Of a DNA stretch of 64,000 nt, positions 823 to 20,378 are shown one piece after another. The stretch's first letter is position 1. Each line of letters begins with the position of its first letter. The DNA is from Desulfobacca sp. (GTDB taxonomy: Bacteria > Desulfobacterota > Desulfobaccia > Desulfobaccales > Desulfobaccaceae), in assembly GCA_020725545.1 (NCBI GenBank), contig DYEV01000027.1, positions 1-64,000 of the forward strand, read 5' to 3'. The notes beneath the pieces are model-generated. The model saw nothing but the letters and a program-made list of their open reading frames with translations, searched no databases and had not been told where the DNA came from. The translations under genes were made by a program, and so were the position numbers.

Positions 823-3800
823 ATGGAACCAAGGATTGATTTGTTGACCCTGCAGATGAATTTGCCCTACTACAACCTTAAGGAAAAATTGGGCCGCAAA
901 GTGGACATCGACTGGCGGGCGGAGTGGGACCGCTTTGACGCCAAGAAGCTCTTTGAATTTGATCTGGCGGCAATTCCGGTAGCAGACCTGGAGTCCATGC
1001 GAAAACGTCAGGAAGTCTTGATGGACGGCAACACGGCGGCGATTTCCGTACTCACCCGCCTGGTGGACGGGTTGTGCGGCTATCCCATTACCCCATCGAC
1101 GCCCATTGCCGAATCTTTTGCCCGGGCCGCGGCCCAGGGCCAGAAGAACCTGTTCGGCCATGAGCTGATGTATTTCCAGCCCAGTGATGAGTTGTCGGCC
1201 ATCGTCTCGGTGGAGGCCATGGCCTGTCAAGGGGGTCGCTATTCTGACAACACTTCTTCCCAGGGGTTGCTGCTGAAAACCAAGAACCTCTTTTCGGTGG
1301 CTGGCAAACGCCTGCCGGTGGTTATGACGGTCATGGCCCGGGAGGTGAACAAAGGGTCACTCAGTATTCATTGCGGTCACACCGATTTCTATGCGGTGCG
1401 CAACGCCGGGTGGGCGCAGCTGGTGACCGGCGACAACCAGGAGCTCCACGATCTCTTGCCGGTGGCCTTTAGGGTGTCGGAGCTGCGGCAGGTGATGTTG
1501 CCGTGTATGGTCATCGGCGATGGCTTCATTAAGAGCCATGCCATCGAGAGTATTAAAGAATTATCTGATGAGTATCTCCGTTATTTTGTGGGCGCGCCCA
1601 ACCGTTTTTATCAGCCCAATTATTCCTATCCGACGCTGACAGGCACTTTCACGGATACCGATCTGACCATGGAGGGTCAAATCAGCCAGGATTTTGCTTA
1701 TCATTTTATGCGCAAGGCCTATATTGCGGCGATGAACGTGGCCAACCAGATCCTCGGGACGAACTACAAAGTGGTGGAGTGTTATCGCACCGAGGATGCA
1801 GATATGGTGGTCATGGTGCTGGGCTCAGCTGCTGGGGTGGTCAAAGATGTGGTGGACTATTACCGGGAGTCCCGGGGCTATAAGATCGGCGTGGTGCGGC
1901 CGGTGTTGTTTAACCCGCCGTGCTATGAGGAGATCGCTTTTGGAGTCCGCCAGGCCAAGGTCATTTCGGTGCTGGAACGCTCCGGTACGGCCCACAACCA
2001 GCTCCTGTTGGCTGATTTACAGGCGGCCTTGCAGATCTCATTGCGAGCTGGTCGAGAAGGCAAACCGGAGCATCGGGTTTATGGCCGGGAGAGCATGCCG
2101 ACGTTGCTGCACGGCGTCTATGGTCTGGGGAGCAAAGACTTCAATAAATACGACGCCGCCGCGGTGGTGGAAAACATGATCGCCTGCTATGAAAAGAAGC
2201 GGGGCGGTTTTCTGCGGGATTTTTCCGTGGGTATTGAAGGCCCCTATACCCTGAAACCGGCGCCGCTGCCCGGCTATCCGGAAAGGGAATTGGGAATGAC
2301 CTTCATTGGCATCGGCGCCGAAGGGGTGAAGACGGCCCTGGAGACCGCGGCCTTGATTTATGCGGAGGAAAGCGACGGTCCGAAGAACTATATTCAAACG
2401 GGGGCCCGTTATGGGGCAGCCCGCAAGGGCGCGCCGGTCTTCATGAATCTGCGCCTCAGTCCCCGGCCCATCCGCAACAGTTCCGAGCTGACGGAGCGGG
2501 ATGTCTTGGCCTTTTTCAATGAAAAATTCCTGGAAGGCCAGATCCTGCGGGAATATGTGGGCGGCCTGAAGGAAAACGGCCTGCTGGTGATCAACAGCCT
2601 GCGGGACCCGGAAGAAATCATAGCCTCTTTCCCTCCGAAAATCCAGAGTCTCATCAAGTATCGCCAGATCAGGGTTAAGGTCATTGACGCTACCTGGGCG
2701 GCCCTGCAACAGATGAAAAAGAACCTGCCCGGTGCGGTCCTCCTGGGGCTGATCAACAAAGAGTTGGGGATCCTGCCGGAAAAGAAATTCGAAGAACGTT
2801 TCCGGCGCATTATGGAGCGGAAGATGGGCAAGAAAAAGGGGACGGCGGTCATCGACGTCAACCTGAACCTGCTCCGCTATGGTGCCGAAAAGAGCGGCGC
2901 CACGCGCAAAGGGACGGCGGCGAACGATCTGGCGGCTATGGAAATGCCCGGCAGTGATTATCAGCCGCCTCTCCCGGAGGATTTCGGCCAGCAGCCCGGC
3001 ACATCCGGACTGCCCGTGCAACTCAAGGAAAAAGATGAGTTGGGGACCATTAAACCGGTGAACCTGATCCCCAATTACCAGGAAATCTTTTATCTGGAAA
3101 TGGTGCATCCCATCATCGAAGGGCGCAAGGTCAGTTGGGATCATTTCCTCCCCGTGGTGCCGGCCGCCACCACTCGCTATCGTGATCTCAGCTTTATCGG
3201 CACCCAGCTGCCGGTGTGGGATGCGGCCAAATGTACCGCCTGCGGCACCTGCACCGCCTCCTGTCCGGATTCGGCCCTGTTCTGCACGGTGACAGAACGG
3301 CCCATCCCTCTGGAATACGAAAACTACTTTAAAATCTTTAAGAAACCGCCCAAAGGGGTGCCCTGGGACAGCTTTGCCATGAACATTGATGCGGTGCCCA
3401 GTGCCTGCAAGGGTTGCGGCGTCTGTGCGGCGGTCTGTCCCACCGATGCCCTGCGCATGGTGGACAAGACCAAACTGACGGATCGGGATTTCCTGCCGAC
3501 ACCCTGCCGGGAGTATGATAATACTTATGGCCTGGCGCCTCATGTGAGTCAGTTGACGCAGATGCATCAGGTCCTATTCGTGCTTTCCAAGATGTATCCC
3601 GGTAAACATACATTATGTCCGGGTTGCAGCGAGCCGACCATCAACCTGCTCACCTATTTCGCGGCAGAGTCGTTGCGGAATAATCCCGAGGGGATCGCCA
3701 CCTTCTATCAGGGCATTAAAATTCTGTCGGACAAGGTCCGCTATGCCATCGAGCACATGCTGGATCATGGCTTCAACATTTATACCATCAACTCCACCGG

Positions 3801-15324: not shown

Positions 15325-17172
15325 ATGACATCGGACAATACTTTTAACGTCACAGAAGAACAGGTAGCCACGGCTGCCCCAAACACCACGGGGGAGGAAA
15401 AACCGGAACAGGGTCCTTCCCAGGGCTCGGATGTCCAGACTGCCGAGTCCGAGGAGATGAAAGATCTGGGCGGCAGCTTTGACCAGCTGCCCGATCTTTA
15501 TGAGGAAAGTCTGAAACAATACCAGGAAGGTGAAGTTGTCAGCGGCCGGATCGTGGCCGTGGATAAAGATTACGTCATCGTCGACATCGGCTATAAATGC
15601 GAAGGCCACATTCCCATTCATGAGTTTTTGGATGCCGGTGGCGAAAATACCGCCAGGGTCGGCGACCAAGTGGACGTCCTGCTGGAAAGGCGTGATGATG
15701 AAGAAGACATCATCCTGCTCTCCAAAGAAAAGGCCTCCAAGATTAAGGTCTGGGAAGAAATCAGCGCCGCCTATCAACAGGATGGCGAGATTGAAGGCAA
15801 CGTCGTGGCCAAAGTCAAGGGCGGCTTATCCGTCGATTTGGGCGGTGTCACTGCTTTCTTGCCCGGCTCCCAGGTCGATCTGCAGCCGGTGCGCAATATT
15901 GACAACCTCATTGGCCAGACCTATAAGTTTAAGATTCTCAAATACAATAAAAAACGCCGGAATGTAGTTCTCTCCCGCCGAGTCATTTTGGAAAAAGAAC
16001 GGGCTGAGCAGAAGGCCGCCACCCTGGCAACCCTCGAAGAAGGCAAAGTCGTAACCGGGACCGTCAAGAATATTACCGATTACGGCGTCTTTGTGGATCT
16101 GGGCGGCATCGACGGTCTGCTGCATGTCACCGACATGTCCTGGGGACGCATCGGTCATCCTGCCGACCTCTTTCAGGTGGGCGACACCATCCAGGTCAAG
16201 ATCTTGAGCTTTGACCGGGAAAACGAAAAAGTCTCCCTCGGTCTGAAACAGTTGGTGGAAGATCCCTGGCTTACCGCGTCGGAAAAGTATCCGGTGGGGC
16301 AACGGGTGCAAGGCAAGGTGGTCAGCCTGACCGATTACGGTGCTTTTGTGGAGTTGGAGCCGGGGGTTGAGGGCCTCATCCACGTATCCGAGATGTCTTG
16401 GACCAAGAAAGTCCGCCATCCCTCCAAAATCGTCTCCATCGGCGATATCGTCGAAGCCCAGGTTCTGGATATTGATACGGCGAAAAAACGCATCTCTCTG
16501 AGCATGAAGCACGTGGAGCCCAACCCCTGGGATGTCATCGGTGAAAAATATCCGGAAGGTACCGTCATCGAAGGCAAGATCAAAAATATCACGGACTTCG
16601 GAATTTTTATCGGCATCGATGAAGGCATCGACGGGTTGGTGCATATCTCTGACATTTCCTGGACCAAGCGCATCAAACATCCTTCCGAGGTTTTTAAAAA
16701 GGGTCAGGAAGTTCAGGCCAAGGTCCTAAAAATTGACAAAGAAAACGAACGTTTCTCTTTGGGCATTAAACAACTTACCGACGATCCCTGGAAGACCATC
16801 GACCAGCGCTACCCCATCGGCAAAACTGTCACCGGACTGGTGACCAACAAGACCGATTTCGGGGTCTTCATCGAGCTGGAAGAAGGGATTGAAGGCCTGA
16901 TCCACGTCTCGGAATTGAGTCGGGATAAGAATAAGCCCCTCCAGATTGAAGTGGGTGATATGGTGACTGCCAAAGTGATCAACGTATCGCCCAAGGATCG
17001 CAAGATCGGCTTGAGTGTCCGTAAGTTGGAGACCGACCAGGAGCAATCGGTCTATCGTGATTACCTCCACTCCCGCCAGGAAGCCACCACACCGCTGGGC
17101 GAGCTGTTGCAGGAGCGTTTGGAGGAGAGCGAACTGCTGAAACAGGAAGAGAAACAAGAAGATTCAGACTAG
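15325..17172 (+). CDS. rpsA: 30S ribosomal protein S1
   Basis: A 615-residue protein with six S1 RNA-binding repeats. The last four are very regular, each about 87 residues with blocks such as GVFVDLGGIDGLLH, GAFVELEPGVEGLIHVSEM, GIFIGIDEGIDGLVHISDI and GVFIELEEGIEGLIHVSEL. The N-terminus is an acidic, low-complexity leader of about 50 residues and the C-terminus is Glu-rich. S1 binds mRNA leaders on the 30S subunit. GGGGGTAGGG precedes the ATG. It follows cmk by 100 bp. Confidence 0.96.
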   Translation: MTSDNTFNVTEEQVATAAPNTTGEEKPEQGPSQGSDVQTAESEEMKDLGGSFDQLPDLYEESLKQYQEGEVVSGRIVAVDKDYVIVDIGYKCEGHIPIHEFLDAGGENTARVGDQVDVLLERRDDEEDIILLSKEKASKIKVWEEISAAYQQDGEIEGNVVAKVKGGLSVDLGGVTAFLPGSQVDLQPVRNIDNLIGQTYKFKILKYNKKRRNVVLSRRVILEKERAEQKAATLATLEEGKVVTGTVKNITDYGVFVDLGGIDGLLHVTDMSWGRIGHPADLFQVGDTIQVKILSFDRENEKVSLGLKQLVEDPWLTASEKYPVGQRVQGKVVSLTDYGAFVELEPGVEGLIHVSEMSWTKKVRHPSKIVSIGDIVEAQVLDIDTAKKRISLSMKHVEPNPWDVIGEKYPEGTVIEGKIKNITDFGIFIGIDEGIDGLVHISDISWTKRIKHPSEVFKKGQEVQAKVLKIDKENERFSLGIKQLTDDPWKTIDQRYPIGKTVTGLVTNKTDFGVFIELEEGIEGLIHVSELSRDKNKPLQIEVGDMVTAKVINVSPKDRKIGLSVRKLETDQEQSVYRDYLHSRQEATTPLGELLQERLEESELLKQEEKQEDSD

Positions 17173-17350: not shown

Positions 17351-18241
17351 ATGGCCAATCGTTCTCCGGTGGTAATCTTTCTGTTATTGGGCGCTATTTT
17401 GCTTTTTTTCAGCGGGGTTATCCTGCTTATGCTGTCCATGACCGGAAGCCAGGTGAAGTTGGTCCGGAGCAATAAAGTGGGCGTGGTGGAGGTCACGGGG
17501 ATCATCACCGAGGCCCGGAGCACCCTGAATACCCTGAAGAAATTTCGGGAAAGCGCCGCGATCAAGGCCATTGTCCTGCGGGTCAATTCCCCGGGTGGGG
17601 CGGTGGGACCTTCCCAGGAGATTTTGGCCGAGGTCTACCGGACTCGTCAGCAGAAGAAGGTGGTGGCTTCGTTGGGCACGGTGGCGGCTTCCGGCGGATA
17701 TTATATTGCTTCGGGGGCCGATGTGATCCTGGCCAATCCAGGCACCCTCACCGGCAGTATCGGGGTGATCATGAATTTTACCAATATCGAACAGCTCACC
17801 CAGAAGTTGGGCATAGAGCTCTTTAATCTCAAGGCCGGTCGCTTTAAAGACGCCGGTTCACCCACCCGGCCCATGACTCCTGTGGAACGGGCCTATTTGC
17901 AGAAACTCATCGATAACGTCCATGAACAGTTTATTCTGGACGTGGCCCGGGGGCGCAAAATGCTGCTCCACAAAGTCCGGGAAGTGGCCGACGGCCGGGT
18001 CTTTACCGGCGAGATGGCCAAACACTTGGGGCTGGTGGATCAATTCGGCAACCTCTCCGAGGCCATTGATCTGGCCGGCCAGTTGGCCGGCTTGACGGGC
18101 AAAGTAGAGCCCGTTTACCCGCCCAGGGAACGATTTTCCCTCTTCCGGCTGCTCATGGGAGATGATCCGGAAGAACTCCTCAGCCGCTGGCTTGGACCGG
18201 GCGCGGCCAGCCCGGCATATCTCTTTGCTCCCGGCCAGTGA
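17351..18241 (+). CDS. sppA: signal peptide peptidase SppA
   Basis: A 296-residue S49-family serine peptidase of the short, single-domain type. One N-terminal membrane segment (about residues 8-30) is followed by the crotonase-like protease domain. The VNSPGGAVGPSQEI block and the nucleophile region VAASGGYYIASGAD are visible, as is GTLTGSIGVIM. It digests leftover signal peptides in the membrane. The catalytic Lys is presumably in the segment near FNLKAGRFKDAGSP. It faces the yciO-type gene tail to tail with only 10 bp between stops. Confidence 0.92.
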   Translation: MANRSPVVIFLLLGAILLFFSGVILLMLSMTGSQVKLVRSNKVGVVEVTGIITEARSTLNTLKKFRESAAIKAIVLRVNSPGGAVGPSQEILAEVYRTRQQKKVVASLGTVAASGGYYIASGADVILANPGTLTGSIGVIMNFTNIEQLTQKLGIELFNLKAGRFKDAGSPTRPMTPVERAYLQKLIDNVHEQFILDVARGRKMLLHKVREVADGRVFTGEMAKHLGLVDQFGNLSEAIDLAGQLAGLTGKVEPVYPPRERFSLFRLLMGDDPEELLSRWLGPGAASPAYLFAPGQ

Positions 18242-18251
18242 TTCCCGCCAT

Positions 18252-18860
18252 CTACAACACTTCACTGATCTTTCCTTTGCCCTCGCGCAGGACTTCCGGC
18301 GTATCATCGATTAAGGAGATGATGCTGGACGGCTCCGGCACGATAATGCCGCCGTCAATCACCAGATCCAGCGGCGGCTTATAATATTCAGCGATATCAT
18401 AAGGGTCGCTCATGATGGTGCCGTCTTCCCGGCTGGCGCTGGTGGTGATTATGGGGTGGCCCAGCAACTGTACCAGGCGCAGACAGATGGCATGATCCGG
18501 AACGCGGATGCCGGCCGTTTTGCGGCGCGTTAACATAATTTTGGGGACCAGCCGGCTGCCTTCCAGGATAAAGGTATAGGGGCCGGGCAGCAGGCGGCGC
18601 ATGGTTTTGTAGGCAAAGTTGGTGACTTTGGCGTATTCACTGATGTTTTTCAGGTCACCGCAGATGAAGCTGAAGGGTTTGCTGAGCGGCCGCTTTTTCA
18701 GTTGATACACCCGCTCAATGGCCTTTTTATTGAACAGATCGCAACCGATGCCATAACAGGTGTCCGTGGGGTAGGCGATGATGCCGCCCTCAGCCAAAAC
18801 CTCCACGACCCGGCGGAGGAGACGCTCCTGGGGATTGTCAGGGTTAATGCGCAGAAGAAT
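18252..18860 (-). CDS. Sua5/YciO/YrdC family protein, probable AUU start
   Basis: The YrdC-like domain is clear (IIAYPTDTCYGIGCDLF, KRPLSKPFSFIC, LLPGPYTFIL, HPIITTSAS), as in the enzymes making threonylcarbamoyl-AMP for tRNA or the YciO relatives. The N-terminal residues LLRINPDNPQERLLRRV, typical of YciO proteins, are encoded upstream of the first GTG (18806), but no ATG, GTG or TTG precedes them. An AAGGAG Shine-Dalgarno at 18874-18869 sits 8 nt before an in-frame ATT at 18860, which I take as the start (202 residues). If ATT is rejected, the GTG at 18806 gives 184 residues. It follows the M23 gene by 12 nt. Confidence 0.85.
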   Translation of the reverse strand: MLLRINPDNPQERLLRRVVEVLAEGGIIAYPTDTCYGIGCDLFNKKAIERVYQLKKRPLSKPFSFICGDLKNISEYAKVTNFAYKTMRRLLPGPYTFILEGSRLVPKIMLTRRKTAGIRVPDHAICLRLVQLLGHPIITTSASREDGTIMSDPYDIAEYYKPPLDLVIDGGIIVPEPSSIISLIDDTPEVLREGKGKISEVL

Positions 18861-18872
18861 AAGTTGATCTCC

Positions 18873-20378
18873 TTATTGGCGTTTTTTCTTTTTTGTTCCC
18901 GGCGTTTTCCGGGATTCCGTCCCTGACTCCGGCGCCGCCACCGCTTTGGCCGGGGCTGCGGGCAACCCGACGATGGCCAGTTGCCGGTAAACCTGATCTT
19001 TCAGCCAATGGGGATCCCACCATTCCACCGGATTGACTGGGTGACCGTGGATCATGACGGCGAAGTGCAGGTGATCTCCACCTGCCATGCCGGTGGCGCC
19101 GGTGCGGCCGAGGATATCACCCTTCTGGACCTTTTGGTTCTTTTCAACCTTGATTTCACTCAAGTGACTATAAAGGCTGAATAATCCCAAGCCGTGGTCG
19201 AGGATCACCGATTGCCCATAAATCCCCAAGGGACCGGTAGAGACCACAATGCCCGTATTGCCAGCCGGGACTTCGGCCCGCTCCAGGGAGGCCAAATCCT
19301 GCCCGAGGTGCACCTGTTTGTCGACCTCGCGGCCGCGATATTTATAAGTGCGCTGATCGGCAAAACCAGCCATCGGCTTACTGTTGGGCAGTCGGGAAAA
19401 AGCCCCCTGCCACAGAGGCTCAGAGTGGCTCTGTTGGCAGACGTCCAAGATAAACCGGTCGTTTTTGAGACGTTCGGCCTGATTGATCTGGAGAAAGACC
19501 GCCAACGGGTCGGTCAGGCCTTGCAGTTGCGGATTCATCCCCTGAAATTCGGCCAGCTTGCGCTGGAGGAAGTCATCGCTGATGTTTAAGGTATCCGCCT
19601 TCCACTTGCGCGGCTTGAGGCGATACCATAACTTATGCCGAACTTCGGCACCGCCTAAGTCCACGGCCAGCAGTTCCAGGTTCAGGGGTTGGGGCAGGTC
19701 GTATGGAACGGCGAAAAAGGCCAGATAGCGGCCGGCTTCTTTGCCCACGGCATAACCGGGATAGAACACGCCGTTGACCAAAAGCCCGGTTTTGGCCGTC
19801 GGCTTATTGACCTGATAGGTCACCAGGCCGGTGCCGCCCTGATTGAGGACCTCGTTAATGGACGTGAAAGTCAGGCGCAAGGGGGTCAGATCAATGTGCA
19901 GCGGCCGCACCAGTTCGGCCCGGTTGCCCTGGAACCAGCCCATCAGGGAGTAATCCCGGGCTTCCACTGTCAAGGTGGCCGGTCCTTCCTGAAAACCCCA
20001 GGCCTTGGCTTCCAAGGTCAAAGGAATCTGCACCTGCCGGTCCTGGCCGCCCCGGCCCCAGCGCCGGCCCGGGAAGGTCTGGGCCAGGACCTCTTTGCGG
20101 TTGCCTTCCTGTTGCAATCGGACCGTTACCCGACTCAAGCCGCTGTTATCATCACTGAGGGTGAGGGTGAAGGTTTGTTTGGGACCCAATAATTGGGCAT
20201 CCGGTTGTAACTGTATCACTGGCGCATGCAGATCAAACCAGGTGCCGGTGAGCCAAACAGCCCCGGCAATGAAGGCCAGGCCGATGAACGCCAGAAACAG
20301 ATAGGTGGAGAAGTAACTTCCCCATTTTGACCAGGTTCGCTTCCTGCTAATGGCTGCACCCTCCTCAGAAAAATCCAT
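18873..20378 (-). CDS. membrane-anchored M23 (LytM) family metallopeptidase
   Basis: A 501-residue protein with one N-terminal membrane segment (about residues 22-46), a long periplasmic region of beta-rich character and a C-terminal M23 domain. The zinc and catalytic residues are seen in VHLGQDLAS (H-x3-D) and DHLHFAVMIHG (HxH). Glycyl-glycine endopeptidases of this family cut peptide cross-links or act as inactive activators of amidases; the complete metal ligands suggest an active enzyme. The C-terminus is a basic tail (TKKKKRQ). It is co-directional with the yciO-type gene and 12 nt upstream of it. Confidence 0.87.
   Translation of the reverse strand: MDFSEEGAAISRKRTWSKWGSYFSTYLFLAFIGLAFIAGAVWLTGTWFDLHAPVIQLQPDAQLLGPKQTFTLTLSDDNSGLSRVTVRLQQEGNRKEVLAQTFPGRRWGRGGQDRQVQIPLTLEAKAWGFQEGPATLTVEARDYSLMGWFQGNRAELVRPLHIDLTPLRLTFTSINEVLNQGGTGLVTYQVNKPTAKTGLLVNGVFYPGYAVGKEAGRYLAFFAVPYDLPQPLNLELLAVDLGGAEVRHKLWYRLKPRKWKADTLNISDDFLQRKLAEFQGMNPQLQGLTDPLAVFLQINQAERLKNDRFILDVCQQSHSEPLWQGAFSRLPNSKPMAGFADQRTYKYRGREVDKQVHLGQDLASLERAEVPAGNTGIVVSTGPLGIYGQSVILDHGLGLFSLYSHLSEIKVEKNQKVQKGDILGRTGATGMAGGDHLHFAVMIHGHPVNPVEWWDPHWLKDQVYRQLAIVGLPAAPAKAVAAPESGTESRKTPGTKKKKRQ

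Follow-up and report, generated by a model that had tools for sequence, protein, structure and literature searches.

The yciO gene described here is encoded on the minus strand of a 64,000-nucleotide stretch of Desulfobacca sp. DNA, the whole of which is referred to as the window. Read from an AUU codon, its coding sequence extends over 18252..18860 (-) and comprises 202 codons plus the stop codon, an assignment based on the reading frame, on two family profiles and on the match to Escherichia coli YciO. It is preceded on the same strand by a gene for an M23-family peptidase (18873..20378, (-)), and its convergent neighbor is a sppA-type gene (Peptidase S49; 17351..18241, (+)) recognized by profile matches. 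The sole tRNA found in a scan of the window, a tRNA-Leu, is located at 366-451.

The yciO frame is open from the stop codon at 18252 back to the TAA of the M23 gene (18875-18873), after which it reads GGA GAT CAA CTT ATT CTT CTG CGC ATT AAC CCT GAC AAT ... GTC GTG. The preliminary description of this locus proposed the first ATT of this series as the start codon, and the distances on which it relied are confirmed: the AAGGAG core of the Shine-Dalgarno (SD) sequence (18874-18869, (-)) is separated by a spacer of 8 nt from the ATT (18858..18860, (-)), and the M23 stop codon is situated 12 nt ahead of it. The complete motif, UAAGGAG (18869..18875, (-)), overlaps this stop codon. Translation from the AUU would generate a protein with the predicted N-terminus LLRINPDNPQERLLRRV. 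The further claim that this conserved N-terminus is encoded upstream of every canonical start codon is borne out, as ATG, GTG and TTG are absent from the conserved first 18 codons and the first of these codons in frame is the GTG at 18804..18806 (-), which constitutes codon 19. In any frame between -20 and +66 around the ATT, only this GTG at +54 and a TTG at +63 were found. Annotation from the GTG would drop the 18 codons at 18807..18860 (-), the loss of 18 residues that had been foreseen.

The protein matches PF01300 (Sua5_yciO_yrdC) over positions 1-178 of the 178 profile positions (192.4 bits, 6.2e-57, cut-off 25.1) and TIGR00057 at 1.1e-61, in agreement with its earlier description as a YciO/YrdC-type gene. 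Among relatives of solved structure, it is closest to E. coli YciO (1k7j; 172.6 bits, 6.5e-50), while TsaC (1hru) reaches 75.8 bits and Sua5-type proteins 90-104. Judged by these scores, it is a member of the YciO subfamily and not of TsaC/Sua5. A second single-domain PF01300 gene is present in the window genome (contig C29, L171:3607-4164, minus strand) and begins with an ordinary ATG. Its product is nearest to Sua5-type synthases (up to 129.6 bits, against 66.2 for YciO) and is, from this similarity, probably the true threonylcarbamoyl-AMP synthase, i.e., the t6A enzyme. Since NCBIfam places both paralogs under TIGR00057, the name of this family does not settle function. Passages of a study on YciO report a very weak synthase activity in vitro, an inability to substitute for TsaC and a conserved positive surface patch in the subfamily; a link to rRNA is proposed there and the biological role is described as unsettled (PMC12506659).

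Start column and ribosome binding site among relatives

Relatives were compared at 110 yciO loci, comprising that of the window, 29 from 59 related genomes and the best 80 of 188 from GTDB contigs. The search of the 59 related genomes gave matches in 49, and loci were taken from the best 30 matches, the window's included. After leaving out two paralogs (L002 and L003), dropping one locus at a contig edge and removing duplicates, 101 distinct loci were obtained. The stretch in which a canonical start was permitted extended from the upstream stop codon to four codons past the ATT column. All available Desulfobacca genomes, four in number, were included: the window genome (G000), G001, G002 and G003.

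The ATT shares its column with the ATG of most relatives: ATG is found in 75 of the distinct loci, ATT in four, TTG and GTG in three each, and another codon in 16, all of which possess a canonical start inside the permitted stretch. Such a start is thus available in 97 of the 101 loci, and the four loci that lack it are exactly the four Desulfobacca genomes, each with ATT in the start column. A near-cognate codon is therefore fixed at the ATG column of relatives in 4/4 genomes of the genus. An ancestral ATG would have changed to ATT in the Desulfobacca lineage and would then have been kept.

Several of these genomes are metagenome assemblies, and a sequencing or assembly error in place of ATG might be suspected. 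This explanation is next to inconceivable, as the same ATT occurs in four separate genomes whose YciO proteins are 83-95% identical. The comparison with relatives that had been suggested as a check on such an error returned ATT in the other three of three genomes of the genus, among them G003, assembled into one contig of 3,282,536 bases, and an error was consequently ruled out. The identity of the codon alone is weak evidence for a start, because one of the 16 other columns with isoleucine in all four species (codon 5) is likewise ATT throughout. The case for an AUU start is carried instead by the SD sequence, by where the codon stands and by the lack of other candidate starts.

In every Desulfobacca genome except G003, the calculated duplex between the SD sequence and the anti-SD sequence, which occurs once in the window genome, amounts to -9.3 kcal/mol, and in G003 to an ordinary -5.3. 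For the 75 loci with ATG, the median is -5.1, and 8% of them exceed -9.3 in strength. The strong SD sequence of yciO fits the AUU and AUA starts of Staphylococcus aureus, as far as passages of PMC13009471 describe them. RNA folding around the yciO start, computed for three of the four species, showed nothing unusual (z -0.11, 0.94 and 1.07).

CUG is a known near-cognate start codon, and CTG occupies codon 3 (18854 in the window) in three of the four Desulfobacca genomes. Initiation at this CUG rather than at the AUU is nevertheless very unlikely: G003 carries ATC at codon 3, the SD spacing is 14 nt to the CTG vs. 8 nt to the ATT, and the ATG of relatives aligns with the ATT and not with the CTG. 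It is still less probable, to a degree that makes it barely worth considering, that read-through or frameshifting of the M23 gene gives rise to an M23-YciO fusion. The layout in the window and in G001, where the M23 stop codon lies in the yciO frame at -15 from the ATT, would permit such a product. However, the M23 stop codon of G003 is located at -58 in a different frame and the yciO frame is closed by a further stop at -15, that of G002 at -51 is followed by a second stop at -15, and the codons between M23 and yciO are not conserved. Read-through was excluded by the frame in G003 and by the second stop codon in G002.

Coding constraint and predicted structure ahead of the first GTG

Between the four Desulfobacca species, 39-57% of the 4-fold degenerate sites of yciO differ despite the similarity of the proteins, which indicates that codons drift freely. 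Pairwise comparison of the species gives 5-8 synonymous vs. 0-4 amino-acid changes within codons 2-18, where a single random change is expected to replace the amino acid in 73% of cases. In the ten codons before the ATT, six to nine of the ten amino acids differ in each pair, except for the closest pair (G000/G001) with three. These upstream codons are hence unconserved as protein while codons 2-18 are constrained, so that the ATT marks the onset of protein conservation. Three residues encoded upstream of the GTG, N6, P10 and R13, are invariant among 34 aligned proteins, namely that of the window and 33 selected from GTDB loci.

The same region forms part of the predicted fold. An AlphaFold model built with 34 sequences reached a pLDDT of 94.5 overall and of 95 and 98 over the first two ten-residue blocks, and both a strand at residues 2-4 and a helix at residues 12-23 are modeled with high confidence. 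It matches E. coli YciO (1k7j) over the whole length with a TM score of 0.94 at 40% identity. According to this model, a start at codon 19 would delete the strand and cut into the helix, whose first seven residues belong to the dropped segment.

These data bear on the possibility that translation begins at the downstream GTG (18806), with the conserved sequence ahead of it being a relic or left untranslated. Besides being the first canonical start in frame, this GTG is compatible with PF01300, which scores the short form equally well (192.9 vs. 192.4 bits), and in three of the four genomes both codon 18 and codon 19 are GTG, with an SD duplex of -6.1 kcal/mol ahead of codon 18 in two of them (G001 and G002). 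However, codon 18 of the window is not GTG, and codon 19 has a weak duplex ahead of it (-4.4 in one genome and -1.1 in the other three, that of the window among them). In addition, the TIGR00057 score drops by 13 bits for the short form, and neither the constraint on codons 2-18, with residues invariant in 34 proteins, nor the loss of the strand and part of the helix is in keeping with a GTG start. This start is accordingly regarded as highly improbable, and was rejected on the basis of codon constraint, invariant residues, structure and the weak SD sequence. A further GTG at codon 21 has an SD duplex of -7.2 in G002 and G003. The AUU at 18860-18858 as the genuine start codon of a YciO ortholog is well supported by the comparison of sequences.

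Start selection elsewhere in the genus

A synteny comparison of the window yielded few genes common to several species, not enough to estimate a base rate, and a larger sample was used for this reason. About 392 kb of G000 and 900 kb of G003 were compared by their stop-to-stop frames, giving 312 reciprocal best pairs, reduced to 99 by the removal of shadow frames. A pair was flagged if its aligned codons reached upstream beyond the first canonical start. Twelve of the 99 were flagged, six in both genomes and six in one genome only. The only credible conserved non-canonical starts among the 99 pairs are those of yciO (ATT) and infC (ATC), whose regions had been put into the sample on purpose and neither of which is an independent draw. 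The other frames flagged in both genomes include one with an ATG, one with a TTG and a presumed nuoB-like frame in which TTG and GTG starts are present and the conserved part upstream shares sequence with the preceding gene. A generally relaxed start selection was rejected in view of the two credible cases among the 99 sampled pairs. As far as this sample goes, non-canonical starts appear to be rare and gene-specific in Desulfobacca.

The remaining frame flagged in both genomes consists of 60 codons (L167 near base 15570, plus strand; contig C29 of G000 at about 35570) and has no canonical start in G000 or G003. The two versions are 67% identical over 48 columns with a gap, and the frame is perhaps not coding. 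The flags in a single genome include a frame that we take from its peptide to be RF2-like (L179 near base 900, plus strand; contig C30 of G000), whose start lies upstream in another frame and which presumably represents the known programmed frameshift of RF2. In G003, a gene that we likewise assume to be TrmN6-like (L142 near base 3600, minus strand) shows no ATG, GTG or TTG before its conserved core. Its ortholog in G000 has an ATG, and G003 alone may use CTG or ATT as the start.

The start of infC could be read in 25 of 28 loci (L113-L140), and each of these 25 has ATC or ATA where the start is expected behind an SD sequence. Almost throughout the order, this start follows a strong SD sequence and occurs without an ATG. 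In G000, G001 and G003 (L122, L119 and L129), infC starts at ATC behind a strong SD sequence and likewise without ATG, and no infC was found in G002. An additional ATG two codons earlier is seen in G010, and several infC loci carry an in-frame GTG within the SD sequence itself.

Expression level, IF3 and known non-canonical starts

In the proposed mechanism, UAAGGAG would pair with the anti-SD sequence of 16S rRNA and thereby place the AUU in the P site of the 30S subunit, where initiator fMet-tRNA would start with one mismatch and at low efficiency. The output of YciO would be low, decreasing further under high IF3 proofreading and increasing under low proofreading. The nearness of the M23 stop codon could additionally provide coupling in two of the four species. 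We infer initiation with fMet, low output and sensitivity to IF3 for this AUU, and the link to IF3 is plausible by analogy, given the ATC start of infC in the same genus. Very likely, the best explanation of the data is an AUU start that is fixed but weak, is assisted by the SD sequence and limits YciO to a low level, probably in an IF3-sensitive manner.

The AUU might instead be a start without any control by IF3, fixed simply at low efficiency or as a mildly deleterious change for which a stronger SD sequence makes up. This is a possibility to be taken seriously, if a somewhat doubtful one. The stronger SD sequence in three of four genomes resembles such a compensation, and passages of PMC13009471 describe no media-dependent effect for the AUU of S. 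aureus cvfC1. On the other hand, some sensitivity to IF3 is expected by default, because elevated IF3 inhibits non-canonical initiation in E. coli according to passages of PMC2268962. A more far-reaching idea extends the weak, SD-assisted start to a small start-fidelity regulon, in which infC (AUC) and yciO (AUU) would both rise as IF3 proofreading drops and accurate start selection would be restored through an action of YciO on rRNA or tRNA. In yeast, the loss of Sua5, a relative of YciO, and of t6A raises non-AUG initiation, as stated in passages of PMC4717488. We consider this regulon unlikely; if true, it would give the YciO subfamily its first hint of a function.

In E. coli, infC has a start of the AUU/AUC/AUA type, is autoregulated and encodes IF3, the discriminating factor itself, and yciO starts with AUG. 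The yciO of Desulfobacca shares with infC an AUN start, a strong SD sequence and conservation across species, and the infC of Desulfobacca itself begins at ATC. YciO, however, is not known to take part in initiation, so that a feedback loop like that of infC is not implied. The AUU start of E. coli pcnB reportedly limits expression (Binns and Masters are said to have described this in 2002). It resembles the yciO case as an AUU start outside the initiation-factor genes with low expression, which for yciO is inferred, but the protein is unrelated to YciO and E. coli belongs to a different phylum. The model structure of YciO corresponds to the full-length E. coli protein, from which the gene differs in its start codon.

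Passages of PMC9410913 name infC and pcnB as the only E. coli genes that start at AUU. Parallels are also found in staphylococci, where cvfC1 (AUU) and ccpN (AUA) keep both the start codon and an extended SD sequence within the group, as yciO does within Desulfobacca; passages of PMC13009471 put the output of such non-canonical starts in S. aureus at about 10% of that of AUG in poor medium. In contrast to yciO, whose start is deduced from sequence, theirs were mapped experimentally, and the proteins are unrelated. In Borrelia burgdorferi, the AUU start of pncA/BBE22 was experimentally proven, unlike that of yciO, and databases still carry a truncated protein (PMC13398362). There, the first canonical codon gives a protein that is short by 24 residues and lacks N-terminal residues needed for the structure, a situation similar to that of yciO, and the passages of this report claim no regulation. 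Within the open-access literature covered and with the terms used, an AUU start of yciO was not found described, and matches to a query on the start codon in Desulfobacca acetoxidans were unrelated by title. The yciO gene is thus a new member of the small known class of genes with non-canonical starts (infC, pcnB, cvfC1, pncA).

Genes with proven or conserved AUU starts are few, and gene callers limited to ATG, GTG and TTG shorten them. Database sequences and structure models of Desulfobacca yciO are probably wrong at the N-terminus. In genomes of a single genus that also carry an AUC-initiated infC, a weak yciO start offers a handle on the role of YciO, and the comparison of orthologous stop-to-stop frames across species provides a cheap route to further genes of this kind.

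A separate observation concerns the intergenic region of G002, where a 9-codon frame (ATG to TAA; L034 about 2956-2985) is located between the M23 stop codon and the AUU. It ends on the TAA that belongs to the yciO SD sequence and is a possible leader peptide or coupling element.
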